The notes under the pieces were generated by a model. It did no database searches and had not been told where the DNA came from. It worked only from the letters and a program-made list of their open reading frames with translations. The translations under genes and the position numbers were made by a program. Shown piece after piece: positions 138 through 19,970 of a stretch of 22,945 nt of DNA. Position 1 is the first letter of the stretch. Each line of letters opens with the position of its first letter. The DNA is from a virus: the IMG/VR virus record IMGVR_UViG_3300035659_001111, positions 1 through 22,945 of that record. One strand, 5' to 3'.

Positions 138-380
138 ATGGCTCAGATCATGCGTAAGCGTCCAAGTCGGTTCGCCTACATTTCGACGAGTGGGCCGAAG
201 ACTGGTTCCCGTTCAACCATTGCCAAGCACATGAAAAAGATGCGCCGCGACAAAGCGGCGTTCGAGGCAAAGCACCCTGGGAACCGGATGTTGACGGCAT
301 TGGGCCAACAACATCGTGAGGTCAAGGCGACTATTCAACGAGTGCGGCGGCGCAAGGTTTGGGTGCGTGGAAAATCGTAA
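138..380 (+). CDS. Small highly basic protein (80 aa)
   Basis: The product has 80 residues with about 23 Lys/Arg and only 3 Asp/Glu. The start has a strong GAGGGGTG ribosome binding site 4-9 nt upstream. The middle part (KHMKKMRRDKAAF, residues about 30-42) resembles an amphipathic basic helix, and the C terminus is an Arg/Lys block (RVRRRKVW). No known domain is recognised. It is the first of 19 such genes in the window. I infer a nucleic-acid-binding or virion-internal role from composition and from location in the structural operon. A ribosomal-protein-like function is an alternative but no ribosomal family signature is seen. Confidence 0.75.
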   Translation: MAQIMRKRPSRFAYISTSGPKTGSRSTIAKHMKKMRRDKAAFEAKHPGNRMLTALGQQHREVKATIQRVRRRKVWVRGKS

Positions 381-403
381 CTCAGTACAGGGTAGGGTGA
401 ACT

Positions 404-568
404 GTGAAAGCGGTAAACTACGAACGCAAATCTAGGAAGGAACAGAACGCTGAAAGAAGGCGAGCCACGTCCAGCGACGGAAACGGTACGCAACGATGTT
501 CCAATGAGAAGGCGGCTTGCGATGAAGCAGAACACGCGGAAACTCGTGAGTTCCTTCCGCATATTTAG
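404..568 (+). CDS. Possible small basic ORF, GTG start (54 aa)
   Basis: A GTG at 404 with TAGGGTG upstream opens a 54-codon frame ending at TAG 566-568. The first 20 residues are basic (KAVNYERKSRKEQ) and would fill the otherwise unused gap 381-521. The last third overlaps the better supported gene starting at 522 in another frame and there looks like a shadow translation. It could be a real short gene, a decayed gene, or chance. Confidence 0.25.
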   Translation: MKAVNYERKSRKEQNAERRRATSSDGNGTQRCSNEKAACDEAEHAETREFLPHI

Positions 569-692
569 CGAGATGCACCCTGCGGTTCGCAAGAGGATTG
601 CCGTACAGATGCGAGACCGAAAAACGCGGTTTGGATCAAAGGCAGTTCGGCGGGTGCATATTTCTGAGAAACTAAGGATGCCGACAACATGA
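522..692 (+). CDS. Small basic protein with TR-motif N terminus (56 aa)
   Basis: Residues begin MKQNTRKL, the N-terminal signature shared by several neighbours. There are about 16 Lys/Arg and 3 Asp/Glu in 56 residues. I chose ATG 522 over the in-frame ATG 504 because GAGAAGG lies at a usable distance upstream of 522 and because the start then matches the shared motif. The stop overlaps the next ATG (ATGA at 689-692), which implies translational coupling. Function unknown; by context a minor virion or DNA-associated protein. Confidence 0.7.
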   Translation: MKQNTRKLVSSFRIFSEMHPAVRKRIAVQMRDRKTRFGSKAVRRVHISEKLRMPTT

Positions 693-850
693 AGTCCAAG
701 ACCCGCAGACTGATCGCCCGCGTGAAGGCCGACAGCCGCAGCCATGCGTCCGCCGGCCGGCTTGGTATCTCGGCGATGACGCGGAAGGAACGGGCCAAAC
801 TGCTCAAGCGGCAGCCGCACTGGGCCAGAAAGCACAACTACCCAAGGTGA
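689..850 (+). CDS. Small basic protein with TR-motif N terminus (53 aa)
   Basis: The 53-residue product starts MKSKTRRL and carries about 17 Lys/Arg against 2 acidic residues. It overlaps the preceding gene by 4 nt (ATGA) and its TGA (848-850) abuts the next start. The segment TRKERAKLLKRQ (about 31-42) is predicted to be a basic helix by eye. Its similarity to the 522-692 and 1259-1471 products is confined to the first eight or so residues, which fits a shared tag on divergent bodies rather than simple gene duplication. Confidence 0.72.
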   Translation: MKSKTRRLIARVKADSRSHASAGRLGISAMTRKERAKLLKRQPHWARKHNYPR

Positions 851-853
851 ATG

Positions 854-1054
854 ATGCGGCAGCACGGCCCGACGTTTGGCATGTTCATGTTGGGTTCCGG
901 CCAGAGAAAACCGGGCCACAAGTACAATGCCTTCGGAGTGGACAAGGCTTTCGGGCGGGCATACTCTGCGTACTACAAAAAACGCGACCGCCTAGAAAAA
1001 AAACACGGGACTGCCGTTGCCCGCAAGATGCGCTTTTCAGTGAAAGCAAGATGA
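854..1054 (+). CDS. Small basic, aromatic-rich protein (66-67 aa)
   Basis: Two adjacent ATGs (851 and 854) are possible. I prefer 854 because AAGG at 844-847 is then about 6 nt away. The product has roughly 17 Lys/Arg and 3 acidic residues, with Gly, Phe and Tyr enriched in the first half (GMFMLGSG, AFGRAYSAYY) and a basic helix at the end. It lacks the TR motif of its neighbours. The stop TGA (1052-1054) overlaps an ATG at 1051. No family recognised. Confidence 0.7.
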   Translation: MRQHGPTFGMFMLGSGQRKPGHKYNAFGVDKAFGRAYSAYYKKRDRLEKKHGTAVARKMRFSVKAR

Positions 1055-1098
1055 AAAGCGTTGTCGATCATAACAGGAAAGCAAGAAGTGACGCATGA
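1051..1098 (+). CDS. Candidate 15-residue micro-ORF bridging two genes
   Basis: ATG 1051 overlaps the upstream stop (ATGA) and its own TGA 1096-1098 overlaps the next ATG 1095 (ATGA). It encodes 15 residues, MKSVVDHNRKARSDA. The micro-ORF exactly bridges the gap between its neighbours, so it may serve translational coupling rather than make a functional peptide. Chance cannot be excluded. Confidence 0.3.
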   Translation: MKSVVDHNRKARSDA

Positions 1099-1256
1099 GC
1101 AAGGTCTACTATTGGCTTGGCGGCGTAGGTGCGTACCTGACGGGTTCGGTAGTCATGTTTGTCTACTTGCACAACCATGAGTTACACCGGCCTATCATCG
1201 GCGCGCTACTCTGGCCCCTCCGACTGTTGTTGATCTTGGCGGGGATAGGGCAGTAA
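1095..1256 (+). CDS. Two-TM small membrane protein, holin-like in architecture (53 aa)
   Basis: The frame gives 53 residues with two hydrophobic segments, about residues 6-25 (WLGGVGAYLTGSVVMFVYL) and 34-51 (PIIGALLWPLRLLLILAG), joined by a short His-containing turn (HNHELHR). Size and topology are compatible with a class II-like holin or another phage inner-membrane peptide, but there is no adjacent endolysin, so the function is inferred only. It is the single non-basic gene in this left cluster. The start sits in an ATGA overlap. Confidence 0.65.
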   Translation: MSKVYYWLGGVGAYLTGSVVMFVYLHNHELHRPIIGALLWPLRLLLILAGIGQ

Positions 1257-1258
1257 CC

Positions 1259-1471
1259 ATGAAACAATCAACGCGAAAATTGGCGGGAAAGTTGGCTTTT
1301 GCGAGAACGCAGACGCGATTAGCGATGTTCGACATCGGACAGAGAGAACCGCGTCACGGTCCTTCCTTGGTAAGTCGGCGTGTGTTGGCTGAACACCACC
1401 GCAAAAGTCGCAAGCGGATCGGATCGAGCAAGTATCGCGCGATGCTGAAACAGTGGACCCGTTCTTTCTAG
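1259..1471 (+). CDS. Small basic protein with TR-motif N terminus (70 aa)
   Basis: The product begins MKQSTRKL, nearly identical over eight residues to the 522-692 product (MKQNTRKL), and then diverges. About 19 of 70 residues are Lys/Arg and 3 are acidic. GATAGGG lies 11-17 nt before the ATG. The gene ends 10 nt before the protease/scaffold gene, whose GAGGA ribosome binding site lies in that gap. This adjacency to head-assembly genes supports a head-associated role, which is inference. Confidence 0.72.
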   Translation: MKQSTRKLAGKLAFARTQTRLAMFDIGQREPRHGPSLVSRRVLAEHHRKSRKRIGSSKYRAMLKQWTRSF

Positions 1472-1481
1472 CGAGGACACA

Positions 1482-3149: not shown

Positions 3150-4994
3150 ATGTCGATCGGATACAGTTACGACGCTGCCTATCTTGCCCCGGGCATTTTG
3201 GGGGAACTCGATACCGTCGAGGCCGCGCTTTACTGGGGCGGCGATGAAAAGCAAGTCCGCAAGATGGGCGGACTCATCAGCGGCAGCAGCCTGGACCTCG
3301 CCAACACGCCGACCGACGTTCTCCGCCCGGGCATGTTGCTGGGCAAGATTACGTCCAGCGGCAAGTTGATCCAGTGGGACCCCACGGCGACGAACGGCAG
3401 CGAACAGATTTGGGGTATTTTGGGCCATGACCTGAAGGTCAACCTGAACGGCACGGGCACGGATCGGTTCTATGGCCCGATCATCGTTGGTGGCCCGATC
3501 AAGACCAATGCGATCTTCCGCTCGAACGCCACTTACGGCAACCCTGGATCGTTCACTACAGACCCGTATGAGAACGTCGCGCGCCTCCAGATGCGCGGTC
3601 GGTTCCAACTCGACGACGACTTGGCGCAGACGCCGTTTACCGGCTGGAGCCGAGTCAAGTCGCTCAAAGACGTGGCAACAAGCAACGCCTACACCGTGTT
3701 GGCGGCCGACAACGGCTCGCTCTTCACCAATACGGGGACCAGCGCATCGCAAAATCTGACGTTGCCCGCTATGACGGGGACTCCCGCCCGGGCCGAGAAC
3801 ACCTTGGGATTCCACATCGGAATCTGGATGACGGAAGCCCAGAACATTGTTCTTACCCTGCCAGCCGGGTCTACCTTGTACTCGCCCGGGTCGGCTGCCT
3901 CCTCTGGCCCCTTGACGATTAGTGGGTCCATCGGAACAGTCATCGATCTTCAAGGCGTGTTCGACAAGACGGCCGCCAAGTGGCTTGTCACGATCAACTC
4001 GGCCACTAACACGATCTACGGCGGCAACGCCGGCGTCTTGGAAGCGGTTACGGCTAAAGGCAGTAGCCGTAGCGATTGCCAAGCTATCGCGGCCAGTACG
4101 ACCGTTGCCAAACTCACTTGTGCCTCCGCTGCCTACGGCGTCGTGTTGCCAGCGGCGGTGTTTGTCAACCAGCGAATCAGCTTGGTTGGCGGCGACAAAG
4201 ACTGCCATGTGTATGTGCCGTCGTCGGGCACCCTCAACGGGGTGGCTGGCGCAACCGGGCAGATTCTTCCGGCTGGCAAGGTAGTTGATGTGGTTTGCAC
4301 AGACATCACCGCCAGCACGCAACTGTGGGTGTCGGTGCCGCTTGATGGCCTTGCGGGATATAGCACGACGGCGACGGCCACCACCGATGGAGCGAGCACC
4401 GGCATTATCGCCGCCGGTGCCGGGTACGTGGCAGTGACGTGTGGCACGGCTGGATACAAGGTGACGTTGCCGACCGCCACCTACGAAGGGCAGCGACTGG
4501 TGATTCTGAACGGGGCGAAGCCGCTGAACATCATCGGCGTCTCGGGAACCATCGACGGCGTGGCCTACGGAACGGGAATCACCGTGGGCAAGGCCACGCT
4601 GGTGACATTGATCTGCACCGATGCTAGCGCGGCTGCAAACCTCTGGGTGTCCAATGTGACCGTGCAGTCTCGGAACACCATCAATACCGCCGTGGTGGCG
4701 ACGGCCAGCGGAACCATCAGCAATTCCAACGCCGTTTACGAGGGAGTCACGATTGTCACTGGCGCTAATGACGCAGCGGCGGCCGTGTTGTTGCCGGTTG
4801 CTGCGATTGGCATGGAGGTGCGGTTGATTAGCACTACCGCCAGCAAGAACCTAGAGGTCTTTCCGCAAGTCAATTCGAGCATCAACAACCTCGGTGCCAA
4901 CGTCGCCTATAACTCGGCACAGGACGCGCCGAACCTGATATTCCAAGCAACCTCGGCAACGCAATGGTACGTGATGTCCGATCTTGCCGGGTAA
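3150..4994 (+). CDS. gpD-like head decoration protein with four beta-repeat extensions
   Basis: Residues 1-~165 resemble the lambda gpD head-decoration family: LGELDTVEAALYW, a run ending VLRPGMLLGKIT and KLIQWDP, then a Gly-rich core. The remaining 450 residues form four similar beta-rich repeats, about 166-282, 295-396, 402-502 and 508-609. Each has a VTLP/VVLP strand, a central turn and a closing W-V-S or similar strand (KWLVTI, QLWVSV, NLWVSN, QWYVMS). Classical gpD is ~110 residues, so this is greatly enlarged. I chose ATG 3150 (GAGAGGAA upstream) because the longer frame from 3069 starts inside the terminator. It likely stabilises the capsid and displays spikes on its surface. Confidence 0.72.
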   Translation: MSIGYSYDAAYLAPGILGELDTVEAALYWGGDEKQVRKMGGLISGSSLDLANTPTDVLRPGMLLGKITSSGKLIQWDPTATNGSEQIWGILGHDLKVNLNGTGTDRFYGPIIVGGPIKTNAIFRSNATYGNPGSFTTDPYENVARLQMRGRFQLDDDLAQTPFTGWSRVKSLKDVATSNAYTVLAADNGSLFTNTGTSASQNLTLPAMTGTPARAENTLGFHIGIWMTEAQNIVLTLPAGSTLYSPGSAASSGPLTISGSIGTVIDLQGVFDKTAAKWLVTINSATNTIYGGNAGVLEAVTAKGSSRSDCQAIAASTTVAKLTCASAAYGVVLPAAVFVNQRISLVGGDKDCHVYVPSSGTLNGVAGATGQILPAGKVVDVVCTDITASTQLWVSVPLDGLAGYSTTATATTDGASTGIIAAGAGYVAVTCGTAGYKVTLPTATYEGQRLVILNGAKPLNIIGVSGTIDGVAYGTGITVGKATLVTLICTDASAAANLWVSNVTVQSRNTINTAVVATASGTISNSNAVYEGVTIVTGANDAAAAVLLPVAAIGMEVRLISTTASKNLEVFPQVNSSINNLGANVAYNSAQDAPNLIFQATSATQWYVMSDLAG

Positions 4995-5050: not shown

Positions 5051-6313
5051 ATGGCAACCACTTCACTCAGTCAACTACTCGGCTCCACGCGAGTGACCCG
5101 CGTGATTTCGCAACTCAAGGTGCCGCAGTCGCGCTTGCAGGCGGCCTTCGGTTGCAATCCTGGCGGGCCGAACATCAATCCCGTGGGCGGACGCACCACC
5201 GGATGGGACGTTTTCAACCGGACGCGCGGGATTGCCCAGGGGCGGGCACCCGGAACCGGACCGGCCGTAGTCAAGCCGCAGATCGTGGGGCATGTTACGG
5301 CCACGATCTATCGCGCGCACGAAAAGATTTTCCTCGACGACAACCGGCTACACCTTATGCGGCGGATGGGTCAGGACTGGGGCGTCGTGGATCAACGTGG
5401 CGAGCGGTACGTTGAAGGCCAGGAGCGGCACCTTGCCCAGCGGTTGCGGAACTCCCGCGAGTTCATTTTGTCCCGCGCCCTCCAGGGGGCCTTTTCACTT
5501 TATCAGGACGGCGACGATCTGATCCCTTGCGATTTGGGCACCAGCGGCGCGCAAATCAACCTCAACTACCAGAATCCGTACTGGTTCGATGGCACCTACT
5601 GGCAAGGGGGAGCGGCGGGCTATACGGTATCCTCGGGTCACATTCCAACGCTTGCCAACCTCAAGGCGTTCACAGTTACACTCCCTGGCAATACTGACAC
5701 GACCACGCCGTTCGGCGGTATGGCCGGAACCGTTGCTTGGGGTACGGTGGCGTCAAACGATCCGATCACCGACTGCCTGGGAATCAATGCTGGCTTCGAG
5801 GCCATGCACGGGCGGCAACTTACCAACGTCTGGTGCAACTCGACGACCATTGCCTACTTGTTCAACAGCACGGCAATGAAGGCTGCGGCCGGAACCGCCA
5901 ATACCGTGTGGGACAAGTACGACCGCACCGTGTTTGTCGGTGCCGACGGCGCGCGGGACACCGGCTTCGAGATCGTGTTCAAGGCCCTGCCCTGGATCAA
6001 GTGGCACGTCTACGACGCCGGCCTGGACGTGTGGGACGGCACCTACTTCAAGTTCAAGAAGTTTTTCCCTGATGGGTACGCGGCCTTTGTGCCGGACGTG
6101 GACGCCGACTGGTTCGAGCTTCAGGAAGGCTCGGAGATCGTTCGGGAGAACGTGCTTGATCCGGGTTCGATACGGTTCGGGCTTGCGGCCTGGTCTGAGA
6201 TCAAGACGCAACCGAGCGGCTTCGAGTTGATCGGCCTGGACAACTGCCTGCCGGTGATTTACGTGCCGAGTTGCGTGGCGTTCGTCAATGTGGCCTCAGT
6301 CAGTTCGTCGTAG
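5051..6313 (+). CDS. Major capsid protein, gpE type (HK97 fold)
   Basis: The 420-residue product follows the decoration gene as E follows D in lambda, and is of the expected size. Its opening (LLGSTRVTRVISQLKVPQSR), the early Gly/Pro loop and the central KIFLDDNRLHLMRRMGQDWG segment followed by the long charged helix (GERYVEGQERHLAQRLRNS) fit the major capsid protein E family. The end (WFELQEGSEIVRENVLDPG and later) fits the beta-rich axial domain. AGGGAG lies 10 nt before ATG. No N-terminal delta domain is evident, which agrees with a separate scaffold. A strong terminator follows. Confidence 0.8.
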   Translation: MATTSLSQLLGSTRVTRVISQLKVPQSRLQAAFGCNPGGPNINPVGGRTTGWDVFNRTRGIAQGRAPGTGPAVVKPQIVGHVTATIYRAHEKIFLDDNRLHLMRRMGQDWGVVDQRGERYVEGQERHLAQRLRNSREFILSRALQGAFSLYQDGDDLIPCDLGTSGAQINLNYQNPYWFDGTYWQGGAAGYTVSSGHIPTLANLKAFTVTLPGNTDTTTPFGGMAGTVAWGTVASNDPITDCLGINAGFEAMHGRQLTNVWCNSTTIAYLFNSTAMKAAAGTANTVWDKYDRTVFVGADGARDTGFEIVFKALPWIKWHVYDAGLDVWDGTYFKFKKFFPDGYAAFVPDVDADWFELQEGSEIVRENVLDPGSIRFGLAAWSEIKTQPSGFELIGLDNCLPVIYVPSCVAFVNVASVSSS

Positions 6314-7017: not shown

Positions 7018-8382
7018 ATGGTAACAGACTCAACCTACACGATACTGGTTGGTGCCCCAGGCCCCAACTTCACTTGGGGTTGCGTACAGGGTTTGCTCGC
7101 CCTGACGGATAGCAAGCATACCGTGCAACTGACAAACTCTGGCAACGGGTTCGATGACTTCAACGCCATGTGGGTCACGGCCCTGAACGCATCCGAGGAA
7201 GGCAAGATTACGCATGTGGCGATGTTACACCTGGACATCGCCCCCCTTTGCGGTCGGGAGGACGGCATTTGGTTGGACACCCTGATCGCAGAACTCGACC
7301 GTCTCGATCTGGATTTTGTTTCCGCCATCTCGCCGATGAAGGATGGGAAAGGACTGGTCAGTTCCGGCATTGGCGACCCCAACGATCCCTGGACGCCGTA
7401 CCGACGGATTGCCATACGGGAGTTGTCGAGTTTGCCGGAAACCTTTGACGCCGCCACGTTGGGTTATGCCGGCTGGCCCTTGTTGCACAACTCCGGCTGC
7501 TGGGCGGCTGATCTTCGCAAACCGATTTTCCACCAAACCGATGCAAAGGGCGAATGTCCGATGCACTTCGGCTTTCCCGAAAAGGTGTTTCGCAATCCCG
7601 TTACGGGGAAATGGGAACAGGCGCGGGAATCGGAAGACTGGTTTTTCTCGCGGTGTCTGTTTCAAGTCGGGGCGAAAACGGCTGTCACCCGCAAAGTCAA
7701 ATTGATCCACTGGGGCCGGGCGGGCTACGGAAATTTCGGCACCTGGGGCCAGTTGGAACACGATACGCCGCTGGCTTACAAGTGGGCCGTGCCGCGCGGT
7801 CCCTGGGACGAGATTCAAGGCTGGTTCGACTTCGCCGACATCTATGAAGAGCAAATCGCCCGGGTGAACGGCGAGGCGGCGCACTTCGTTGAGGTAGGCG
7901 CATGGCTGGGCAAGTCCACCGTGTTCATGGCGTCGAAAATTCGCGGCTCCGGCAAGCCGATTGCCTTCGATTGCGTAGACACCTGGAAAGGCGGAACGAA
8001 CGAGCTAGACAACGGCTTGGCAACCGCGGAACGACTGGCGACAAACGGCCGCGATCTGTTTGCGGAGTTTTCCGAGAACGTGAAGGAGTGCGGCGTGGCG
8101 GAGTACATCCGGCCGGTAAGGAGCGATTCGGCAGAGGCGGCAGGTGCGTATCTCGACGGTTCGCTGGATTTCGTTTTCATCGACGCGGATCACTCATACG
8201 AAGGTGTGCGCCGCGACCTGGCGGCCTGGTGGCCGAAGGTGAAACCAACCGGCGTGTTGGCCGGTCACGACTACGACGAGAAGGGAGTGAGGAAAGCGGT
8301 TGACGAGTTTGTCGAGGCGCACCACTTGAAGGTCCAGTCGCGTCACCGCAGTTTCGTTTTGGAAAGGAACAATAAGCCATGA
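7018..8382 (+). CDS. Two-domain glycosyltransferase-methyltransferase
   Basis: Residues ~1-240 look like a GT-A glycosyltransferase: a beta strand at 7-12, a VAMLHLDI segment (67-74) where family 2 enzymes carry their metal-binding Asp motif, and ESEDWFFSRC (204-213) at the position of the family's ED motif. The canonical DXD is not intact (LDIAP), so catalysis is uncertain. Residues ~280-450 form a class I SAM-dependent methyltransferase of the Methyltransf_24 kind: VEVGAWLGKS (291-300, SAM loop), FDCVDTW (317-323), FVFIDADHSYEGV (385-397) and GVLAGHDYD (412-420). Being inside the virion gene block suggests modification of a capsid or tail protein glycan, but a cell-surface target is possible. 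It overlaps the next gene by 4 nt. Confidence 0.68.
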   Translation: MVTDSTYTILVGAPGPNFTWGCVQGLLALTDSKHTVQLTNSGNGFDDFNAMWVTALNASEEGKITHVAMLHLDIAPLCGREDGIWLDTLIAELDRLDLDFVSAISPMKDGKGLVSSGIGDPNDPWTPYRRIAIRELSSLPETFDAATLGYAGWPLLHNSGCWAADLRKPIFHQTDAKGECPMHFGFPEKVFRNPVTGKWEQARESEDWFFSRCLFQVGAKTAVTRKVKLIHWGRAGYGNFGTWGQLEHDTPLAYKWAVPRGPWDEIQGWFDFADIYEEQIARVNGEAAHFVEVGAWLGKSTVFMASKIRGSGKPIAFDCVDTWKGGTNELDNGLATAERLATNGRDLFAEFSENVKECGVAEYIRPVRSDSAEAAGAYLDGSLDFVFIDADHSYEGVRRDLAAWWPKVKPTGVLAGHDYDEKGVRKAVDEFVEAHHLKVQSRHRSFVLERNNKP

Positions 8383-8495
8383 AAACCGTAAGTCGCACTC
8401 GCCGAATCGTGCGTTCAGTTCGTTCCAAGAGGCTAACCCACCGGCAACGGCGGCAAAAGTACATCGGTGGTCCCATGCTGCCGAAGAGCAAATAG
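8379..8495 (+). CDS. Tiny, extremely basic protein (38 aa)
   Basis: Only 38 residues, 14 of them Lys/Arg and none acidic, making it protamine-like. It starts MKTVSRTRR, a variant of the shared N-terminal motif with Ser5-Arg6. Translation is coupled to the upstream gene through ATGA, and GGAAAGGAAC precedes the start. It is too short for most gene finders. It opens the main array of basic genes. Confidence 0.65.
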   Translation: MKTVSRTRRIVRSVRSKRLTHRQRRQKYIGGPMLPKSK

Positions 8496-8497
8496 CC

Positions 8498-8710
8498 ATG
8501 CTACAGAGAACGAAAAAGTTGATGGCAGGACTTCGCTTCGTACGTAGCGCCGGTGCATTGCAGGGGAAGTCGCGGCAAGACATCGCCGCATGGCAAAGGA
8601 AATCAAAGACCCAGATCGGCAGGAAGCGATTGGGTGCTTTGTTGTGGAGACAGGCAAAACCAGGACGGTACAACTTCATGGGAAAGGCGCGCCGTCCAAA
8701 AGGATACTGA
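8498..8710 (+). CDS. Small basic protein with TK-motif N terminus (70 aa)
   Basis: Seventy residues with about 20 Lys/Arg and one acidic residue, beginning MLQRTKKLMAGLRF, the shared motif with Thr5-Lys6 and Leu8. It starts 2 nt after the previous stop with only a weak ribosome binding site, so it is probably reached by reinitiation. The C terminus (MGKARRPKGY) is unstructured-looking and basic. No domain recognised. Confidence 0.7.
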   Translation: MLQRTKKLMAGLRFVRSAGALQGKSRQDIAAWQRKSKTQIGRKRLGALLWRQAKPGRYNFMGKARRPKGY

Positions 8711-8770: not shown

Positions 8771-8977
8771 ATGGCTGCCAGAACCGGCGCGAGAGCGTTT
8801 CGTCAAGCGGCGATTGCCAAGGGGAAGGTATGGCAGATTTACCCTGACCGCAAACCGCGACACATCATGTTCGAGGGCACGAAAACGGCTGCGGGCCGTT
8901 ACCTCAGTGCGAACAGGCTGAACCGAGCGTACAAGAAGGGAACTATTCGGCGGGCACAAGTGATATGGGAGCGATGA
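8771..8977 (+). CDS. Small basic protein (68 aa)
   Basis: Sixty-eight residues, about 17 Lys/Arg and 3 acidic. A strong GGGGGTAGAAG precedes the ATG. The sequence alternates basic helices (ARAFRQAAIAKGK, NRLNRAYKKGTIRR) with a beta-like middle (VWQIYPDRKPRHIMFEG), so it is more likely to fold than the shorter members. A 60-nt gap (8711-8770) with no visible ORF or hairpin precedes it. Confidence 0.72.
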   Translation: MAARTGARAFRQAAIAKGKVWQIYPDRKPRHIMFEGTKTAAGRYLSANRLNRAYKKGTIRRAQVIWER

Positions 8978-8978: not shown

Positions 8979-9176
8979 ATGAGACAACAAACTAAGCGAC
9001 TAATCGGGCGGCGTCGCACAGGGAAGATAATTAGTGCGGTTCATGGCGCGACGGGTTCAAGAACATTAGCTGTTGTTAGTACACGTTCGCGCATTCTGAG
9101 GGCAGCAGCGGTGCGAAAGATGCGAAAGAACCCAGCGTTTCGACGATTTCTCAAGCAAGACATCCATTCTATGTGA
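8979..9176 (+). CDS. Small basic protein with TK-motif N terminus (65 aa)
   Basis: Sixty-five residues with about 18 Lys/Arg and one Asp. The start MRQQTKRLIGRRR carries the shared motif. The C-terminal part AVRKMRKNPAFRRFLKQ resembles parts of the 138-380 (KMRRDKAAF) and 11523-11663 (KLQAFRNPGF) products, a hint of distant relationship. GGAG sits 6 nt before the ATG, inside the end of the preceding gene. Confidence 0.72.
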   Translation: MRQQTKRLIGRRRTGKIISAVHGATGSRTLAVVSTRSRILRAAAVRKMRKNPAFRRFLKQDIHSM

Positions 9177-9185: not shown

Positions 9186-9353
9186 ATGTCCAAGGGCTAT
9201 TTCAAGCGATTCGTTGACGGCGTTTTGGCAGCGAAGTTTGCCCGCAAGCCGGGCAGTTACTATCCCGCGGCACTCGCGGCAAAAGTGTCTCGTGAGAAAG
9301 AAGGCAAGCGGAAGTTTCAAGCAAAGGCCGCCAGAGGCCGCAGAAAGGGATAG
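9186..9353 (+). CDS. Small basic protein (55 aa)
   Basis: Fifty-five residues with about 17 Lys/Arg and 3 acidic. A strong GAGGTGAG ribosome binding site overlaps the previous stop. It begins MSKGYFKRFVDGVLAAKF and ends in a basic helix (KEGKRKFQAKAARGRRKG). It lacks the TR motif. The longer frame in which the next gene lies reads across this gene out of frame and is not real here. Confidence 0.68.
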   Translation: MSKGYFKRFVDGVLAAKFARKPGSYYPAALAAKVSREKEGKRKFQAKAARGRRKG

Positions 9354-9357: not shown

Positions 9358-9546
9358 ATGAAAAAGTCTACCAAGGCGCTCATTAAAGGTTTGCAACGAT
9401 ACCACAATCGGCAATTTCTCAACGGTCCTAACACAATGAAGCGCGGGGCACCGGGCGGTTTCCGGGGAAGCGTGGCGTCGATGTTGAAACAGACTCGCAA
9501 GAACGCAAGTCGAAAAGCCGTCAGCAAATACATGAAGAAAAATTAG
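9358..9546 (+). CDS. Small basic protein with TK-motif N terminus (62 aa)
   Basis: Sixty-two residues with about 17 Lys/Arg and no Asp or Glu. It begins MKKSTKALIKGL, the shared motif, has a Gly/Asn-rich middle (NGPNTMKRGAPGGFRG) and a basic C-terminal helix. AGGGAT precedes ATG 9358. It stops at an amber codon (9544-9546), after which the same frame stays open for another 50 codons. Confidence 0.7.
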   Translation: MKKSTKALIKGLQRYHNRQFLNGPNTMKRGAPGGFRGSVASMLKQTRKNASRKAVSKYMKKN

Positions 9547-9558
9547 CAAAGGCCGTCG

Positions 9559-9699
9559 CTGGCAATCAGCGCGTCCGAAAGGCTGTTCCAGGCGCGCTTG
9601 GAGTTGGCTAACAAATTGCCGCGCGGCCGCGCTTTTCGGAAGTCTGTCGCCGCCGGAGTCAAGCGTGTACGCCGGATCAAACCGGGGAGCATCTTGTAA
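9559..9699 (+). CDS. Candidate basic ORF with no ATG/GTG start (46 aa)
   Basis: After the amber stop of the preceding gene the same frame runs to TAA 9697-9699 and encodes LAISASERLFQARLE and then ANKLPRGRAFRKSV and VKRVRRIK, about 12 Lys/Arg. It has the character of its neighbours, fills a 152-nt gap, and its stop overlaps an ATG at 9699. No ATG or GTG exists. CTG 9559 is 6 nt from AAAGG, TTG 9598 is another option, and amber readthrough from the gene at 9358 is a third. A start lost by mutation is also possible. Confidence 0.35.
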   Translation: MAISASERLFQARLELANKLPRGRAFRKSVAAGVKRVRRIKPGSIL

Positions 9700-9740
9700 T
9701 GCACGAATCAACCGCAACTTCTAGTGTGAAAGGTAGTACG

Positions 9741-9914
9741 ATGGCAACACTCCGCAAATATGCCAAGGCAGGTTACTCTACGGCTGCTCCGTTTGTGCGA
9801 ATGAGCGCCGGTGCCGCCCGGAAGGAATTATCCGCTTCGCGGGGTATGCCGCGCCGTCGATGGTTGAGACTCTGGGAAACCGCACATGCGAAGGTTTACA
9901 CGAGGAAACACTGA
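9741..9914 (+). CDS. Small basic protein (57 aa)
   Basis: Fifty-seven residues, about 14 Lys/Arg and 2 Glu, with an Arg cluster (MPRRRWLRLWE). Two starts compete: ATG 9741 with AAAGG at 7 nt, and ATG 9699 with GGGGAG at 9 nt, which would add a 14-residue Ser/Thr-rich lead. I chose 9741 because the product then opens like its neighbours with a basic helix (MATLRKYAKAG). Function unknown. Confidence 0.65.
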   Translation: MATLRKYAKAGYSTAAPFVRMSAGAARKELSASRGMPRRRWLRLWETAHAKVYTRKH

Positions 9915-9921: not shown

Positions 9922-10131
9922 ATGCGAACACGAACACGCGAGTTGCGAGCCGGACTGAACCAGTTGCGCATACGAATGGCGCATTCCTATGGTGTGCCAT
10001 TGGAACGGCGTGGGAGTGTTTCTGGCCGTACTCTACGACAATCGCTTGCTACCAGTTATCGAGAAGGTCGGCTTAATCGTGCCGGTGCCAAGCGAGAGCG
10101 TGCTTACATTCGGAACGCGGGGCTGAACTGA
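9922..10131 (+). CDS. Small Arg-rich protein with TR-motif N terminus (69 aa)
   Basis: Sixty-nine residues, about 16 Arg but one Lys, and 4 Glu. It begins MRTRTRELRAGLNQLR, the shared motif in an Arg form. Start ATG 9922 is chosen over the in-frame ATG 9886, which would overlap the upstream gene by 29 nt. Its TGA overlaps the start of the virion morphogenesis gene (TGATG at 10129-10133). Confidence 0.7.
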   Translation: MRTRTRELRAGLNQLRIRMAHSYGVPLERRGSVSGRTLRQSLATSYREGRLNRAGAKRERAYIRNAGLN

Positions 10132-10883
10132 TGAACCGCCTGACCAAGAACATTCCGATGCCCGCCACTCGCCGCGATGCCGTGGGCGAGTTGAGGATGC
10201 TGCCGCGCTATATCACGGGCACCATGCCCGACATTCACGGCTGGGGCCGCCGGTTCAAGATGTTCTTCGCCTTTCATTTATTGGAGAAGATACACGATGC
10301 TTTCCTTACGAAGTCCGATGGTGGCACTGATGAGACAGGGCTGCGGTGGAAACCACTCAAGCGCGAGACCATCGCGCAACGGCCGCTCGGACCGGGAGAA
10401 GCAACGAAGTTCGGAATCCGGGGACTCGGTCGCAGTGGTCGGGGACTGCTCACTATGTCCCAGAACCGCCGGTGGAAGGGAATCTTTTACTCCACGTTCA
10501 AGCGGCTCTTGCTGAAGGTTGGGGAGGCGCAGGCTAAAGTGTTGGCCGCCAAGTTGGCATGGGCCATTCTGAAGTCCGAGGGGGCCAAGACGAAGCTGGA
10601 CGTGCTTGGGGACCGCAAGGTGCCGATCCTCCAGGTGAGTCACCGGCTGATTAAGAGCCTGACGCCCGGCAGTCTGTCGGACGATTCCTACTCGCCGCCG
10701 GAAGAGCAGATATTTGAGAGCCATTGGGGATCGGTCACGATTGGCTCGAAGGTGCCCTATGCGGCCAAGCAGCACAAAACAAGACCCTTGTGGCCGTCGC
10801 TGGCGGCGCAGGGTCGGGCAGGCTGGACAACTCAATCGGCGAAGTGGGCAATGCAACAACTAACCTCAGTAGTAAAGGCGTGA
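10131..10883 (+). CDS. Phage virion morphogenesis / tail completion protein (Mu gpG-like)
   Basis: The 250-residue product has the family layout: an N-terminal helix region, a G-L-R-W-K-P-L segment (about 68-74) matching the G..W..L motif, a central basic helical part, then a LIKSLTPGSLSDD segment followed by SVTIGSKVPYAAKQHKT, which matches the common 'vGs..pYA..H..G' ending. Such proteins act at the head-tail joining or tail completion step. It splits the basic gene array in two, so those genes are co-transcribed with joining genes. The start overlaps the previous stop. Confidence 0.7.
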   Translation: MNRLTKNIPMPATRRDAVGELRMLPRYITGTMPDIHGWGRRFKMFFAFHLLEKIHDAFLTKSDGGTDETGLRWKPLKRETIAQRPLGPGEATKFGIRGLGRSGRGLLTMSQNRRWKGIFYSTFKRLLLKVGEAQAKVLAAKLAWAILKSEGAKTKLDVLGDRKVPILQVSHRLIKSLTPGSLSDDSYSPPEEQIFESHWGSVTIGSKVPYAAKQHKTRPLWPSLAAQGRAGWTTQSAKWAMQQLTSVVKA

Positions 10884-10886: not shown

Positions 10887-11105
10887 ATGTTTGTCCGAGT
10901 GGGTTCGCATCGCGCACGAGACAAGATGATTTCAGCCTTGGGACGCAAGCCGCAAGAGTATCACTACCCCATAACCGATAGAAGGTCTACTGAATTGGTG
11001 CGGGTGCGACGGACTGAACTTGGAAAACTCAGGGGCATAACGGGCATATCGCACGCCAAGAGAGTGAGAATCAGAGACGTGAGAAAATCGTGGAGCATGA
11101 TGTGA
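10887..11105 (+). CDS. Small basic protein (72 aa)
   Basis: Seventy-two residues, about 19 Lys/Arg and 6 acidic, the least one-sided of the array. It contains a likely folded middle (RKPQEYHYPITDRRSTELVRVRR cut into short helix and strand segments by eye) and a basic end (AKRVRIRDVRKSW). It begins 3 nt after the preceding stop, and AAGG is 12 nt upstream. Unrecognised. Confidence 0.65.
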   Translation: MFVRVGSHRARDKMISALGRKPQEYHYPITDRRSTELVRVRRTELGKLRGITGISHAKRVRIRDVRKSWSMM

Positions 11106-11284
11106 ACATAAAACGGTCGGGAACTATTCGGCTTGGCCGTTTGACCTTTTCACGCCATCAGGTTGCTCGCGCTGCCGGTGACGACGCTGGCAACGCTTCG
11201 ATGCGCCATACCGGTCGAAAGAAATGGAGTCGCGCCGACTACAACAGGGCCGTGCGAGAGTACAACCGAGTCAACCCAAGGTGA
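11102..11284 (+). CDS. Small basic protein, GTG start (60 aa)
   Basis: I chose GTG 11102, which overlaps the upstream stop (GTGA) and has GGAG at about 7 nt; an in-frame GTG at 11090 is possible. The product has about 15 Lys/Arg and 4 acidic residues. GTIRLGRLTFSRHQ looks like a short beta hairpin, and the C terminus (RADYNRAVREYNRVNPR) like an amphipathic helix. This could be a small folded DNA-binding unit, but no family is recognised. Confidence 0.6.
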   Translation: MNIKRSGTIRLGRLTFSRHQVARAAGDDAGNASMRHTGRKKWSRADYNRAVREYNRVNPR

Positions 11285-11288: not shown

Positions 11289-11498
11289 ATGAGAAGAGTA
11301 ACAAGAGCGCACAAAATAGTTGAGGCGGTTCGCGTCCACGTTCGGGCCTTTACGCCTGTTGGTTTTGCCGCGCGTAAAACGACAGCGAACCGAAAAGCTA
11401 GGCGAGAACTCGCAACAAGTATCCGAAAGGTAAGAGCAAAGTCGCATCTGCGTGGCGTAGCAAAACAGTTAGTTCATGGTTACGTCAAGCATTACTAG
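11289..11498 (+). CDS. Small basic protein with TR-like N terminus (69 aa)
   Basis: Sixty-nine residues with about 19 Lys/Arg and 2 Glu. It starts MRRVTRAHKIVEAV, with Thr5-Arg6 as in the shared motif. AAGGTG precedes the ATG, 4 nt after the previous stop. The C-terminal half is one long basic helix by eye (NRKARRELATSIRKVRAK). Confidence 0.7.
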   Translation: MRRVTRAHKIVEAVRVHVRAFTPVGFAARKTTANRKARRELATSIRKVRAKSHLRGVAKQLVHGYVKHY

Positions 11499-11522: not shown

Positions 11523-11663
11523 ATGAAAAAGCCCACGACAATGCAAGTGCGGATGCCCGGTGTACGGGGAAAGGTCACGGTCATGCGCAAGGGATATGCG
11601 GCGTATTTGCGGAAGGTGAGGAAATTACAGGCGTTTCGCAACCCTGGATTCGGTGAAAGATAA
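11523..11663 (+). CDS. Tiny basic protein (46 aa)
   Basis: Forty-six residues, about 13 Lys/Arg and one Glu, too short for most gene finders. The first half (MQVRMPGVRGKVTVMRKG) looks like a beta hairpin, the second (YAAYLRKVRKLQAFRNPGF) a basic helix similar to the ends of two other array members. The ribosome binding site is weak. It ends 3 nt before the tail terminator gene. Confidence 0.6.
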   Translation: MKKPTTMQVRMPGVRGKVTVMRKGYAAYLRKVRKLQAFRNPGFGER

Positions 11664-11666
11664 CCA

Positions 11667-12254
11667 ATGTCCCTATCCGCCATGCTAGTCGCCGTTCGGG
11701 ATCAGCTTCGCTCGGTCTGTGGCTTCACGGACTTCGAGTGCGACTGCCACAACGACCCGCAGCCGCACCCAACGTCGGGCCGACGCTTCATTGCGGTCTA
11801 CCCCGGCGAGTGTCGGGGTGGCCCGCACAGCGACTCGGGCATCCATGAATGGATCGGGATAAACGTGGGGATCACCATGCGGTTCTCAGGTACTCCCCAA
11901 GACTATATTAGCAACGAGTTGTACTTGAAGGCCCTGACGGGCATGGAAACCTTACAACGGCAGGTACAACTGGCGATTCATGCCAACTACACCGTCATGG
12001 CGGCGGCCAACACGATCATCGCAACCGTCAACGACATCGCCTACAGCGCCGGGCCGCCAGTGGTCCCGGCGTTCACAACGGACAAGTTCATTACGCCGCT
12101 GGAGTGGCAGTACACCACGCCGGTCCCGGACGTGAAACTGGGCGACTGGTTTTTCTCAGACAACGAAAACGAAATCAGTAAAAAGTGCGGACTGTTTGTC
12201 GATGTCCGGTTCTCCGGCGCGCACCGGCCGCAACAGCTTTCCAAGATGAGGTAG
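11667..12254 (+). CDS. Probable tail terminator / neck protein (195 aa)
   Basis: It lies between a gpG-like joining protein and the tail tube gene, where siphophages and myophages place the tail terminator. The protein opens with a helix (MLVAVRDQLRSV), has a Cys-rich loop (FECDCHNDPQPH), a strand-rich centre (RRFIAVYPGECRGG, WIGINVGITMRF) and a long helix (LTGMETLQRQVQLAIH). The alpha-beta order fits the terminator fold. Assignment is by context and overall pattern only. Confidence 0.45.
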   Translation: MSLSAMLVAVRDQLRSVCGFTDFECDCHNDPQPHPTSGRRFIAVYPGECRGGPHSDSGIHEWIGINVGITMRFSGTPQDYISNELYLKALTGMETLQRQVQLAIHANYTVMAAANTIIATVNDIAYSAGPPVVPAFTTDKFITPLEWQYTTPVPDVKLGDWFFSDNENEISKKCGLFVDVRFSGAHRPQQLSKMR

Positions 12255-16269: not shown

Positions 16270-16914
16270 CTACGGCTGGCCTTCTGTGGGAATGGAGGAT
16301 ATGAGTTCGTCCAGTTTTTTTTCGGGAGAATCACCCCGCCGACGTTGTTCCCATTGTTCAACTTCTCCCGGCTTTCCCATCATAACATGATGCGTCAGCA
16401 TGTAACCCTTCACAACATCATGTTGGTCCAACACAAACACGTTGTCATTTTCATTGGTGCGTCCGAAACCTTCGTCGGATGTAAACTCGACTCGAAGGCC
16501 CCGACACTTGGCCGGTTCAATTCCTCTCGTATCAACGTCCTGAAATCCAGGGAACGCCCAATATCTTACACCATCGTCATGTTTTCCCCACGAGAAAGGA
16601 ACCCAACGAAGCCCCTCAATCCCAACGTAAACGAACGCATCGGCGAGCGATTCCACCGGATGTGTAGAGTGAATGGTATACTGGCGCTCATGCTTGTCCA
16701 GATATGCCCGCACGGCACTTTCGGAAGCCGACTGTCTCGACGGCGGTGTGGTCTGAGCCATGAAGACACCAACCAGCAACAGAACGATCAAGAGCGTGCC
16801 GCCAAGGCCCGCTGCAATGTACAGGCCGACGCGAGATCGCTTCTTCCGGCCCTTGATGGTTGCGCCAGCGAGCGGTTGGCAAAACGGCACCGGCGGTGGA
16901 CAGGTGTTCGGCAT
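16270..16914 (-). CDS. Single-TM membrane-anchored protein, likely cargo gene (214 aa)
   Basis: It reads against the structural operon. The start at 16914 is chosen because AGGGGATTGCC precedes it; the longer frame has no such site. It has a Pro-rich head, a KGRKKRSR positive stretch (21-28), one TM segment (about 30-53, GLYIAAGLGGTLLIVLLLVGVFM), then a ~160-residue extracytoplasmic domain with an N-terminal charged helix (SESAVRAYLDKHERQ) and Trp/Tyr-rich strands. The positive-inside rule places the C-terminal domain outside. Its strand and position suggest a cargo ('moron') gene, perhaps expressed in a lysogen for envelope modification or exclusion. No family recognised. Confidence 0.62.
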   Translation of the reverse strand: MPNTCPPPVPFCQPLAGATIKGRKKRSRVGLYIAAGLGGTLLIVLLLVGVFMAQTTPPSRQSASESAVRAYLDKHERQYTIHSTHPVESLADAFVYVGIEGLRWVPFSWGKHDDGVRYWAFPGFQDVDTRGIEPAKCRGLRVEFTSDEGFGRTNENDNVFVLDQHDVVKGYMLTHHVMMGKPGEVEQWEQRRRGDSPEKKLDELISSIPTEGQP

Positions 16915-17013
16915 GGCAATCCCCTTTCCGAGACAGAATGGGCGACACAACCAGCATACACAGTTTCCATAGAGTAGGCAATACCCCAGAAACGGGGGAT
17001 AGGAGAAGAGAAA

Positions 17014-17475
17014 ATGACTGGATACCCAGGGTGTGACCATCAGGAAGAGGCGACTTTTGCCGACTTAGTTGGCCAACTCGTCAGCGTGTTCATTGCGGGT
17101 ATTGTGTGGTTAGTGTGCGTTTACTTCATGGTTCACTGGCTACTTGCGCCTCCCGGTTTCCTTCAGGCCCTTGGTTGTCAGCCGATAATTCTGAACGTGC
17201 GGGTGGTAACTGACACAGGGAGCGATGAACCCCAACCGAGCCAGTTTCTCGACGCTGGCAACCAGGTCCGCAAAGCCCGCGGCGTCACGACCCTCCGACA
17301 GAAACCGGTTGCCGACCATCACGTACATCCGCTGGTCGCCCACCCCGACCTCAATCAGGCCAGTGCCAGCGCTAGCAACGTCAAGGATGAGTCTGTCGTC
17401 GTCGGTAAGTCTGTCGCGCCACCGCTGGAGAAGCATCCCTACCAGCCGGGGAATGAACCCCAAAAACCGCAATAG
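17014..17475 (+). CDS. Short membrane ORF, plus strand, overlapping antisense gene
   Basis: The ATG has an excellent TAGGAGAAGAGAAA lead. The first ~45 residues contain a strong TM segment (LVGQLVSVFIAGIVWLVCVYFMVHWLLA). From base 17140 on, however, the frame is fully antisense to the 17140-17484 minus gene, and the residues lack hydrophobic pattern and look like a shadow. Either the two genes genuinely overlap tail to tail, or this is a truncated gene whose stop has been lost. The TM start is real-looking; the rest is doubtful. Confidence 0.4.
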   Translation: MTGYPGCDHQEEATFADLVGQLVSVFIAGIVWLVCVYFMVHWLLAPPGFLQALGCQPIILNVRVVTDTGSDEPQPSQFLDAGNQVRKARGVTTLRQKPVADHHVHPLVAHPDLNQASASASNVKDESVVVGKSVAPPLEKHPYQPGNEPQKPQ

Positions 17476-17484
17476 GTATTCCAT
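17140..17484 (-). CDS. Small protein with amphipathic N terminus and winged-helix-like C terminus (114 aa)
   Basis: GGAGGTGTGCGCGG lies just upstream of ATG 17484 on the minus strand, a strong site. Residues 1-30 are hydrophobic/Arg-mixed (YLLRFLGFIPRLVGMLLQRW). After a beta-containing middle comes ADLVASVEKLARLGFIAP and later NYRLTTKGLKE, the helix-wing pattern of a winged-helix domain. This resembles the layout of SieB-type superinfection exclusion proteins, but the two TM segments of that family are not seen, so this is only a suggestion. Isolated gene on the opposite strand to the virion genes: probable cargo. Confidence 0.6.
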   Translation of the reverse strand: MEYLLRFLGFIPRLVGMLLQRWRDRLTDDDRLILDVASAGTGLIEVGVGDQRMYVMVGNRFLSEGRDAAGFADLVASVEKLARLGFIAPCVSYHPHVQNYRLTTKGLKETGRRK

Positions 17485-17569: not shown

Positions 17570-17607
17570 TACCCGTGTGTTGTCCTAAACCGTAAGGAGC
17601 GTTTTCA

Positions 17608-17997
17608 ATGAGCGTGACCCCAGAGCAAGCCCTTGTGGGCAAAGAGATTCCGAAAGGTCCGGTCGCTATCCCCGACTGGAAACTGAACGTGACGGTCGGC
17701 GATCCGCCGCAAGCGTTCACCATTGACGTGTGCGAGTGGGAGTCGGCGAACAGCCTTTTCCCGCCCGATGAAGTCCAGGGCGTCGGCACGCCGAACTGGT
17801 TCGCCTTCTGGAAGAAGCGCCAGGAGTGGGCCAAGCAAACCTACGGAATCGAGTTGTCCGTTTCGCAGGTCTACCAGATTTTCCAGTACGTGCGGGTGTA
17901 CTGGAACACGATGAAACCTTTTTTCGACAGAGACTTAGGGTTGGCTTTTGGTATCATGCCGACCCCTGGCGACTCGGAGAGTGGCAAGTCCGCCTGA
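17608..17997 (+). CDS. Upstream product of frameshift pair, probable tail assembly chaperone (129 aa)
   Basis: The 129-residue protein has an F-T-I-D-V strand, a helical middle (NWFAFWKKRQEWAKQTYG) and the segment IELSVSQVYQIFQYVRVYWN before the slippery site. That layout (small target-like strand, then 'w...~~g..ls..~a~~i~~~v') is seen in G-like tail assembly chaperones. TAAGGAGCG lies 10 nt before ATG. In zero frame it ends shortly after the slippery T-run with a Gly/Pro/Ser tail (PTPGDSESGKSA). It precedes the portal gene, an unusual place for a chaperone, so the identity remains tentative. Confidence 0.5.
   Translation: MSVTPEQALVGKEIPKGPVAIPDWKLNVTVGDPPQAFTIDVCEWESANSLFPPDEVQGVGTPNWFAFWKKRQEWAKQTYGIELSVSQVYQIFQYVRVYWNTMKPFFDRDLGLAFGIMPTPGDSESGKSA
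17919..17967 (+). promoter_or_regulatory. -1 ribosomal frameshift site: slippery heptamer plus stem-loop
   Basis: In the upstream gene's frame the codons read CCT TTT TTC, so T TTT TTC (17919-17925) is an in-phase X XXY YYZ heptamer. Eleven nt later AGGGTTGGC (17937-17945) pairs with GCCGACCCCT (17958-17967), 9 bp with one bulged C and one G-U, around a 12-nt loop. A slip by -1 at the heptamer enters the open frame that leads, without a stop, into the 62-residue downstream ORF. Confidence 0.6.
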
Positions 17998-18185
17998 TGG
18001 CCGAAGAGTTGCCGGACCTCTTGAAGGAGGCCCGGCAGCGACAAGCCTACGGACAAACCAAACTGAGTCCCAGCGACATGCGGGACTTGATCCTGCACGA
18101 TACCGGAAACAAGGAACTGGCCGAGCAGATCGAAAAGGAACTCTTGATGCAGGAGGCCGCGAAGATCGGTCAGCCAACAGGATAG
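17997..18185 (+). CDS. Downstream half of frameshift pair (62 aa alone, or C terminus of fusion)
   Basis: An ATG at 17997 overlaps the upstream stop (TGATG) and encodes 62 residues, ELPDLLKEARQRQAYG and then a helical acidic/basic C terminus. But the same frame is open upstream from the slippery site, and the extra residues (FWYHADPWRLGEWQVRLM) look coding, with a natural helix continuing into the 62-residue part. I therefore prefer the -1 fusion product of about 193 residues, the GT form of the pair, with the short form as an alternative by reinitiation. Confidence 0.5.
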   Translation: MAEELPDLLKEARQRQAYGQTKLSPSDMRDLILHDTGNKELAEQIEKELLMQEAAKIGQPTG

Positions 18186-18197
18186 GAACGATAGAAC

Positions 18198-19655
18198 ATG
18201 GAAACCGCCGAACATCTACTTGGCGAAGCCGTCACCCAAGACTACGTGCCCTCGATGTACTGGGGGCGCTACTATACGCTCCGCAAGGCCCCGCCGTTTA
18301 GCCTCTCCGTTGCGCTGGAGATGCTGACCGATCCGCGCATTACCCTGGGCATGTGGCTTATCAAAGGGCCGATCCTTTCCAAAACCCGGTTCTACGTGGA
18401 CTGCGACAATCAGGATGTCAAGGAGTTTCTCAAGACGCAAATCACCCGCTTCTGGCGGATGTCGAGCGTGAAGGCCATGAAGGCGGTTGAGTGGGGTTAC
18501 GGTTGCTCGGAAGCGCTCTACAGGTATCAGAACGGTCTGATTCACTTCGACACGCTCAAAGATTTGCACTCGTTAGACTGCCGCGCCGTGACGCAATATG
18601 GAAAACTGATCGGGGCGACGGTGAGGAACGTCCCCAACCAACCGGGCAAACGCAAAGTAACCATCGAAGGCGCCCGTTGTCTCTGGACGGTCCATGCCCG
18701 CGAAGTCCACCAGTGGTACGGCCAGAGCCGGCTCTTTGGCGCGTATCTGCCGTGGCTGGAGTTATGGACGGAAGGCGGCGTGCGCGACACGCGCAGATTG
18801 TACTTTCACAAGTATGCCTTCACGGGGCCGATTGGTTATCATCCTACGGCCGGCGTGACGCTCGCCGATGGCAAGGAAGTATCCAACCGCGATTTCATGC
18901 GCGAAATGCTGGAGAAGTTCAAGACCGGCGCGATAATGACCTTCCCTAACACGCTTAACGCACAGACTGGAAAGTACGCCTGGGATGTTATCCCGCCGGT
19001 CGTCAATCCGCCGCCCGAGCAGATCATGGAGTACATCCGCGACCTGCGCACGGAACTTCTCGAAGGGTTGGGAATCCCGCCGGAAGTGATCGAGTCGATT
19101 GGCGGAACTTCCGGCTGGTCGGGTAAGGCGATCCCGATGGAGGCGTTCTACAGTATCTTGCAGGACATCGTAAATTGGATCAGTCACGATTTACAACGAC
19201 AGATTCTCCGGCCGCTGGTGGACATCAACTTTGGCCCGGACATCGACTTTCAGATAGTTCCTTTCGGCCTGTCGTTTGCGCCGAGCACACCGTCAGATCA
19301 GGCGAACCAGGCGGAGCGCGTACAGGGGCAAACACCATCAGGTGAACAATACAGTCTCTACGGCGAGGATGCCGTAGCAGATCAGCCGCCACGGGGATAC
19401 CGGGCGAAACACGAGAGTCAATATGTGCCCGTTGCCTTCGCGCACGATGTCTCAAGCGAAGCCCGCGTAGCAAAGGGAAGCAGCAAGGGCGGGGCCAATC
19501 CGAAGGTGAAGCCAGCAGAACCGGGCAAACTCAAATCTGCGAAGCCCCAGGCGAAATCACAGAAAGTCAGCAAGTCGAAAGCTAAACGCGCGAGTATTGA
19601 GACGCTGGAGTTCAAGAACCCCGACATCACCATGAGCCTGACAGAAGAGGAATGA
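18198..19655 (+). CDS. Portal protein (Mu gp29-like, DUF935 type)
   Basis: The 485-residue product matches the general portal pattern: an early LSVALEMLTDPRITLGMWLIKG segment (family's 'eml.~D~~i.~~l..rk'), AVEWGYGCSEALYRY (typical 'a..wG.s..Ei.y'), YGQSRLFGAYLPWLELWTEGG, a KTGAIMTFPN strand, and a C-terminal ring-helix segment (GIPPEVIESIGG, then IVNWISHDLQRQILRP). The last ~110 residues are a Lys/Ala/Pro-rich tail. It forms the dodecameric DNA gate of the head. Its place after the tail genes is out of the usual order. AGGA lies 11 nt before ATG. Confidence 0.68.
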   Translation: METAEHLLGEAVTQDYVPSMYWGRYYTLRKAPPFSLSVALEMLTDPRITLGMWLIKGPILSKTRFYVDCDNQDVKEFLKTQITRFWRMSSVKAMKAVEWGYGCSEALYRYQNGLIHFDTLKDLHSLDCRAVTQYGKLIGATVRNVPNQPGKRKVTIEGARCLWTVHAREVHQWYGQSRLFGAYLPWLELWTEGGVRDTRRLYFHKYAFTGPIGYHPTAGVTLADGKEVSNRDFMREMLEKFKTGAIMTFPNTLNAQTGKYAWDVIPPVVNPPPEQIMEYIRDLRTELLEGLGIPPEVIESIGGTSGWSGKAIPMEAFYSILQDIVNWISHDLQRQILRPLVDINFGPDIDFQIVPFGLSFAPSTPSDQANQAERVQGQTPSGEQYSLYGEDAVADQPPRGYRAKHESQYVPVAFAHDVSSEARVAKGSSKGGANPKVKPAEPGKLKSAKPQAKSQKVSKSKAKRASIETLEFKNPDITMSLTEEE

Positions 19656-19658
19656 ATC

Positions 19659-19970
19659 ATGCCGCGCGGAAAAAAAACATACGGCCGGAAACCTCGTGGA
19701 GTCCGCTGGGGGAAGATGCGCGAGATCGATAAGCGAATCCACGTCGGCACCGGGGCATGGGAAGGGATGCCGCGCAGACTCAAACACCTCACTTCCTGGA
19801 GAAGGATGCACATGCTCCCGGGCGGAAAGGCCGCTCACATGCCGGTGCGCATGTACGGCACACGCGCAAAGGTCCGCCCATCATCGAACTTGCGGCTCAA
19901 GGGGTACAAGAACAAAGGCCGCAGCGGTCCCTCGAAGTTGGGTTACATCCAGCGCAAGGGAGGGTTCTGA
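19659..19970 (+). CDS. Basic protein after portal (103 aa)
   Basis: The largest of the basic set: 103 residues, about 29 Lys/Arg and 3 acidic, Gly/Pro-rich, with many His, Met and Trp (WGKMREIDKRIH, WRRMHMLPGGKAAHMP). GAGGAATGAATC precedes ATG, 4 nt after the portal stop, so it is coupled to the portal. It looks intrinsically extended (GYKNKGRSGPSKLGY). A DNA-binding role near the packaging vertex is an inference from composition and position; ribosomal-like composition is an alternative reading. Confidence 0.68.
   Translation: MPRGKKTYGRKPRGVRWGKMREIDKRIHVGTGAWEGMPRRLKHLTSWRRMHMLPGGKAAHMPVRMYGTRAKVRPSSNLRLKGYKNKGRSGPSKLGYIQRKGGF

Follow-up and report, generated by a model that had tools for sequence, protein, structure and literature searches.

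Among described systems, the closest to the genes reported here are the internal proteins (IPs) of phage T4, which are basic, present at about 300 copies each and able to bind DNA in vitro. A 10-residue N-terminus suffices for their loading into the prohead core with gp21, and their bodies diverge, at least one of them countering a host nuclease after injection (PMC9026906, PMC3012670). Here we analyse an IMG/VR virus record over its full length of 22,945 bases (IMGVR_UViG_3300035659_001111), called the window below, which carries exactly 19 small basic open reading frames (ORFs) of 38-103 amino acids on its + strand, inside a capsid and connector operon. Seven of them form one family, which we call TRKL, and the leading, though still tentative, interpretation of the set is that its products are internal head proteins with a mode of action like that of the T4 IPs.

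Like IPI, IPII and IPIII of T4, the predicted products are small basic late proteins whose set varies between related phages. The T4 proteins have a short N-terminus common to divergent bodies; in the window, an N-terminal motif is common to 7 of the 19, and the remainder of these seven is related as well. The T4 proteins are also tied to a gp21-type protease and core, and the window set adjoins a gene whose model resembles gp21, with a middling fold match. The two sets differ in size (three in T4, 19 in the window), no sequence similarity is evident between them, and the head location established for the T4 proteins is a supposition for the window set. Because no T4-type cleavage site was found in the seven TRKL proteins and they are homologous beyond the N-terminus, we do not file the set as a member of the T4 IPs. 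Protamine-like proteins of eukaryotic viruses, such as baculovirus P6.9, are likewise very basic and small, but each such virus has a single gene of this kind, not a set, and the packaging principle is different.

Small basic ORFs in the head operon

With their best starts, the 19 ORFs sum to 1,223 amino acids, 338 of them lysine or arginine (K/R; 27.6%) and 45 aspartate or glutamate (D/E; 3.7%), giving a net charge of about +293 for the set. A preliminary description of this DNA had listed the same ORFs, and its coordinates and quoted K/R and D/E counts all hold (14/0 of 38 residues at 8379, 20/1 of 70 at 8498, 17/0 of 62 at 9358). In the following list, lengths are in amino acids (aa) and orphans are ORFs without homologue or motif.

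138-380, +, 80 aa (23 K/R, 3 D/E), orphan; GGAGG ribosome site
522-692, +, 56 aa, TRKL family (MKQNTRKL); the start at 504 in the preliminary description is also possible
689-850, +, 53 aa, TRKL family (MKSKTRRL); ATGA overlap, core-like codon usage
854-1054, +, 66 aa, orphan
1259-1471, +, 70 aa, TRKL family (MKQSTRKL); directly 5' of the protease-scaffold gene
2775-2969, +, 64 aa, orphan; between scaffold and decoration genes, as is L044 7765
8379-8495, +, 38 aa, orphan; ATGA overlap with the methyltransferase gene
8498-8710, +, 70 aa, TRKL family (MLQRTKKL)
8771-8977, +, 68 aa, orphan
8979-9176, +, 65 aa, TRKL family (MRQQTKRL)
9186-9353, +, 55 aa, ALAAxIGRxKYGKK family
9358-9546, +, 62 aa, TRKL family (MKKSTKAL)
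9741-9914, +, 57 aa, orphan
9922-10131, +, 69 aa, TRKL family (MRTRTREL)
10887-11105, +, 72 aa, orphan
11102-11284, +, 60 aa, orphan; GTG start
11289-11498, +, 69 aa, counted as orphan; possible distant TRKL member (MRRVTRAH ... RRELATSIRKVR)
11523-11663, +, 46 aa, orphan
19659-19970, +, 103 aa, RWGHLxEID...HLSAWRRMH family; conserved 3' of the portal gene

Counting ORFs with at least 24% K/R and a net charge of at least +9 in the 4,414 bases outside the core genes gave 16 on the + strand and 0 on the - strand, against 2.1±1.4 (maximum 7) in 500 dinucleotide shuffles of these stretches. Purine-rich composition alone is thus insufficient to yield them, and their number cannot be chance. The ORFs are also tightly tiled, the gap to the previous stop being -4 to +10 nucleotides in 13 of the 19, and their Shine-Dalgarno matches exceed those of other ATG and GTG codons in the same stretches (p=4e-5). 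Two starts were preferred over those of the longest ORF: 9741 instead of 9699, and the GTG at 11102, which lies in a GTGA overlap and follows a GGAG site. We regard the 19 ORFs as real late genes for the most part, although among the ten orphans there may be some non-genes. The interval 9547-9740 holds no convincing ATG gene, and an open frame without ATG at 9559-9699 (CTG or TTG start) encodes a further basic peptide.

The TRKL family and counterparts in related phages

The ORFs at 522, 689, 1259, 8498, 8979, 9358 and 9922 form one family with the N-terminal pattern MKxxTRKLxxGL and the C-terminal pattern RxxIAxxxRKxR. Across the aligned N-termini of all 19 proteins, column information lies 4.9 standard deviations (sd) above residue shuffles (z=4.9, p<2e-4). 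Of 405 candidate + strand starts in the window, 7 carry the strict N-terminal motif, and none of the 463 on the - strand does; the relatives together have it at one + strand start, that of a basic ORF directly before the protease gene. Codons at the conserved T5 (ACG/ACC/ACT/ACA) and L8 (CTC/CTG/TTG/CTA) differ synonymously, which argues that selection acts at the protein level, and no long DNA repeat accounts for the conservation of the motif.

These relatives comprise the near-identical contig L002 and about 40 distant IMG/VR contigs; a motif conserved in the protease served to find them, as did alignments of the capsid and neck proteins. Run against 10,732 ORFs of relatives, a profile of the seven members singled out just one, L044 6193-6381 (E=4.6e-4; 20.2 bits against 10.6 for the next ORF). 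This full-length match includes the second motif (RxxIAxxxRxxR), lies directly 5' of the protease-scaffold gene and is the counterpart of 1259 by both position and sequence. Weak candidates at the same position in L040 (E=2) and G002 (E=7.5) are not significant alone. An ab initio motif over the bodies of all 19 proteins scored 142.5 (shuffle mean 129.9, sd 3.7, maximum of 40 shuffles 140.3); being marginal and not transferring to relatives, it was set aside, the seven-member profile being the valid test. TRKL is a new, previously unnamed family, and the set has expanded in the window phage chiefly through its duplication.

Two further families are distinct from TRKL. The ORF at 9186 has homologues at L042 18475 (E=2.4e-6) and L100 7470. 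That at 19659 is 53-64% identical to proteins beside the portal gene in L100, L101 and L103, where the portal itself is 44-51% identical. In some relatives the 19659 homologues are not basic and are displaced, so that charge cannot be the function of this protein; in L061, L062 and L070-L073 they lie upstream of the capsid module rather than after the portal, with near-balanced charge. The 19659 protein is predicted to be helical (mean predicted local distance difference test score, pLDDT, 76.5), and its model has no Foldseek match. Profile searches of the PDB with the three families found nothing; basic ApoE helices (E>0.5) were discarded as an apparent match of composition.

The preliminary description had spoken of nineteen distinct, protamine-like genes. 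Seven are instead paralogues, and the set does not form one functional class, since the TRKL seven stand beside two unrelated families, one of which is not basic throughout. Its proposed profile comparison linked proteins within the set, through TRKL, and gave no match at E<=1e-3 for any of the 19 in Pfam-A or PHROGs.

The related contigs have fewer basic ORFs, at recurring places in the operon: before the protease gene, between capsid and connectors, between the neck gene and the next, and after the portal. A basic ORF lies directly 5' of the protease gene in the window and in L040, L044, L039, L046, L049/54/55 and L032/56/58/59/68, and small basic head-operon proteins are often found in the clade. 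For small basic ORFs common to pairs of contigs, the ratio of non-synonymous to synonymous substitution rates (dN/dS) is 0.06-0.23, against 0.11-0.13 for the major capsid protein in comparable pairs; several of these ORFs are under purifying selection. These values, far from the ratio near 1 that the preliminary description had named as counting against its idea, concern frames of the relatives at equivalent places and do not extend to most ORFs of the window itself. Second in size among the clusters observed is that in L084-L086 (G002, 47131-48335), with five consecutive small basic ORFs before the protease gene, two of them called on the opposite strand. In L048, a small basic protein in the interval between major capsid protein and connector (11659-11952) has a C-terminal module of DUF6321 type (PF19846), which none of the window's 19 proteins matches. 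This module also forms the C-terminal end of large phage families (phrog_727, 3477, 30733, 10346) and is possibly a shared terminal tag.

Candidate roles of the small basic proteins

The gene adjoining ORF 1259, at 1482-2768, is likely to encode a prohead protease like T4 gp21 and the herpesvirus assemblins, fused to a scaffold. H55, S116 and H136 are invariant in 26 homologues, one of which matches phrog_976 'head maturation protease' (E=3.7e-8). The predicted N-terminal domain best matches the T4 gp21 prohead protease (5jbl; Z 7.9, 110 residues, root mean square deviation 3.1), followed by herpesvirus assemblins, in a model with a pLDDT of 60 overall that is weak in places.

We favour a payload like that of T4 because of the combination of small basic late genes, an N-terminus conserved in seven proteins with divergent bodies, the adjoining gp21-like protease-scaffold and a varying copy number; the placement of a TRKL member directly 5' of the protease-scaffold gene argues for association with the virion. 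We infer a head location, docking, DNA binding and injection in the following form. The small basic proteins would be made together with the prohead core formed by the protease-scaffold and would co-assemble into it, the conserved TRKL N-terminus being the likely docking element; they would then stay in the head, their basic helices bound to the packaged DNA, and some might be injected. A bolder version, in which a cocktail of some twenty small basic head proteins, many with one new docking N-terminus, makes up an expandable injected or DNA-bound payload loaded via the protease-scaffold, and so a second, independent and much larger T4 internal-protein system, is in our estimate rather unlikely.

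Several observations weigh against a T4-like payload. Several relatives have no basic ORF before the protease gene, and a Z of 7.9 is middling and reachable by unrelated models, although a T4 prohead protease nonetheless tops the list and the residues of catalytic type do not vary. The C-terminal halves of the seven TRKL proteins are also related, and their shared N-terminus may reflect ordinary homology and descent rather than a targeting tag. The T4 IPs are cleaved at [LI]xE after the N-terminal 10-19 residues; inspection by eye found no such site within residues 1-20 of any of the seven, though the window protease may have another specificity. Ten of the 19 ORFs are orphans, with no comparative support. 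Finally, the small ORFs have a synonymous codon score of -0.10 per codon against +0.13 in core genes, and a GC content at third codon positions of 0.60 against 0.73. Only 689 and 19659 have core-like codon usage, 3-base periodicity is weak in each small ORF, and scores of codon usage did not suffice to confirm these genes one by one.

The weak codon bias and periodicity, together with the ten orphans, would be expected if most of the ORFs were spurious or young products of a purine-rich, lightly used stretch, with only 689, 1259, 9186, 19659 and a few more being genes. We hold this to be very unlikely, given the 16 basic ORFs where shuffles yield about two, the tiling and ribosome sites, and the conservation of a motif at the protein level; moreover, the conserved L042 homologue of 9186 has an equally weak codon bias, so weak codon usage is not fatal to gene status. 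Whole-set, protamine-like condensation of the genome, which the preliminary description proposed alongside replacement of host nucleoid proteins and coating of the head interior, would suit the high K/R content and summed charge. Yet tailed phages pack their DNA by a terminase motor (PMC10893049) and so can do without a condensing protein; such ORFs are far fewer in relatives that have the same head genes, and the sequence families are mixed. Condensation is therefore possible, but quite improbable, and less likely than a T4 IP-like role.

The proteins could alternatively be late nucleic-acid binders outside the virion, acting in host takeover, regulation of late transcription or translation, or nuclease inhibition, and merely located in a virion operon. 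Arms-race or accessory genes could well be highly charged, small, fast to diverge and present in copy numbers that differ by lineage, as these are, and none of the 19 matches a structural PHROG; but the positions that recur in divergent phages, next to the genes for protease, decoration, neck and portal, the translational coupling and the tie of a TRKL member to the protease gene make this an unlikely account. Less probable again, for the set as a whole, are cofactors of head or connector assembly, that is, small proteins of a structural or scaffolding type whose surfaces are basic. The 19659 family, kept beside the portal with an identity above the portal's own, with a helical model and with non-basic homologues, is more probably such a cofactor, and 9186 perhaps another, but the idea does not suit seven fast-diverging paralogues and ten orphans.

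The phage clade and its wider setting

The window phage belongs to a clade without an isolate in the phage collection searched, in which isolated phages gave a remote match for the portal only. Single-protein searches with capsid, portal and protease found nothing beyond L002; access to the clade came from a degenerate HIALVTHPV pattern search. Pattern searches of 84,980 bacterial and archaeal species genomes found no related prophage or other relative, and a planctomycete host, our starting guess, was dropped. A search with the portal alone turned up Bacillus phages, but their synteny was of no use. The window portal is about 25% identical to Andromedavirus portals, and its L100 homologue matches the Mu portal family PF06074; in those phages the portal alone is related, with 0-2 comparable basic ORFs in the stretches examined.

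Capsid proteins of the relatives are 29-51% identical to that of the window, and the gene order common to the clade is protease-scaffold, decoration, capsid, insertions, connector, neck, further tail genes, portal and a 19659-type gene. Other features of the window are as follows.

1095-1256, non-basic membrane-type ORF within the basic block
1482-2768, +, likely prohead protease (residues 1-160) fused to a helical scaffold region
3150-4994, +, head decoration protein, N-terminal part lambda D-like
5051-6313, +, major capsid protein (phrog_29, E=1.4e-6; found in relatives)
7018-8382, 454-aa protein ending in a Methyltransf_24 domain; its gene is an insertion between those for connector and neck
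10131-10883, +, neck or tail-completion protein, itself basic (42 K/R, 19 D/E; phrog_26, weak; found in relatives)
16270-17040 and 17140-17484, -, two ORFs within the + strand operon, possible cargo genes
18198-19655, +, portal protein (matches Andromedavirus portals)

Methyltransferases related to the 7018-8382 protein lie ahead of the protease gene in L040 and L064/L065. Neither minus-strand ORF has a Pfam match, and 16270-17040 has an apparent membrane anchor. Clade-wide, the portal gene lies 3' of the tail genes, distant from protease and capsid (18198-19655 in the window; also G001, G002 and G006-G009), unlike most tailed phages, in which it precedes them. The contig L002 differs from the window at 7 positions in 6,680 bases, 4 of the 7 being C-to-T or G-to-A; its changes include stop codons in 1259 (Q28; window 1340) and in the capsid gene (W110, GG to AA; window 5379-5380). 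It is an assembly error, damaged or a defective phage, and with so few differences and these stops dN/dS from it is uninformative.

Basic internal or accessory head proteins are a known kind, but such an expansion has not been described before in the literature and families searched: the open-access literature yielded no phage with many small basic proteins, and no family or paper describing one. Should the proteins prove to lie in the head, their conserved N-terminus would be a candidate for a short cargo tag in a phage other than T4, and the set would offer a natural variant series for learning the role of internal basic proteins. Should they lie elsewhere, the late genes would stand out as an unusual cluster coding for nucleic-acid binders. 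In both cases, the window brings to light seven paralogues of one family and a phage clade missing from the isolate and genome collections that were searched.

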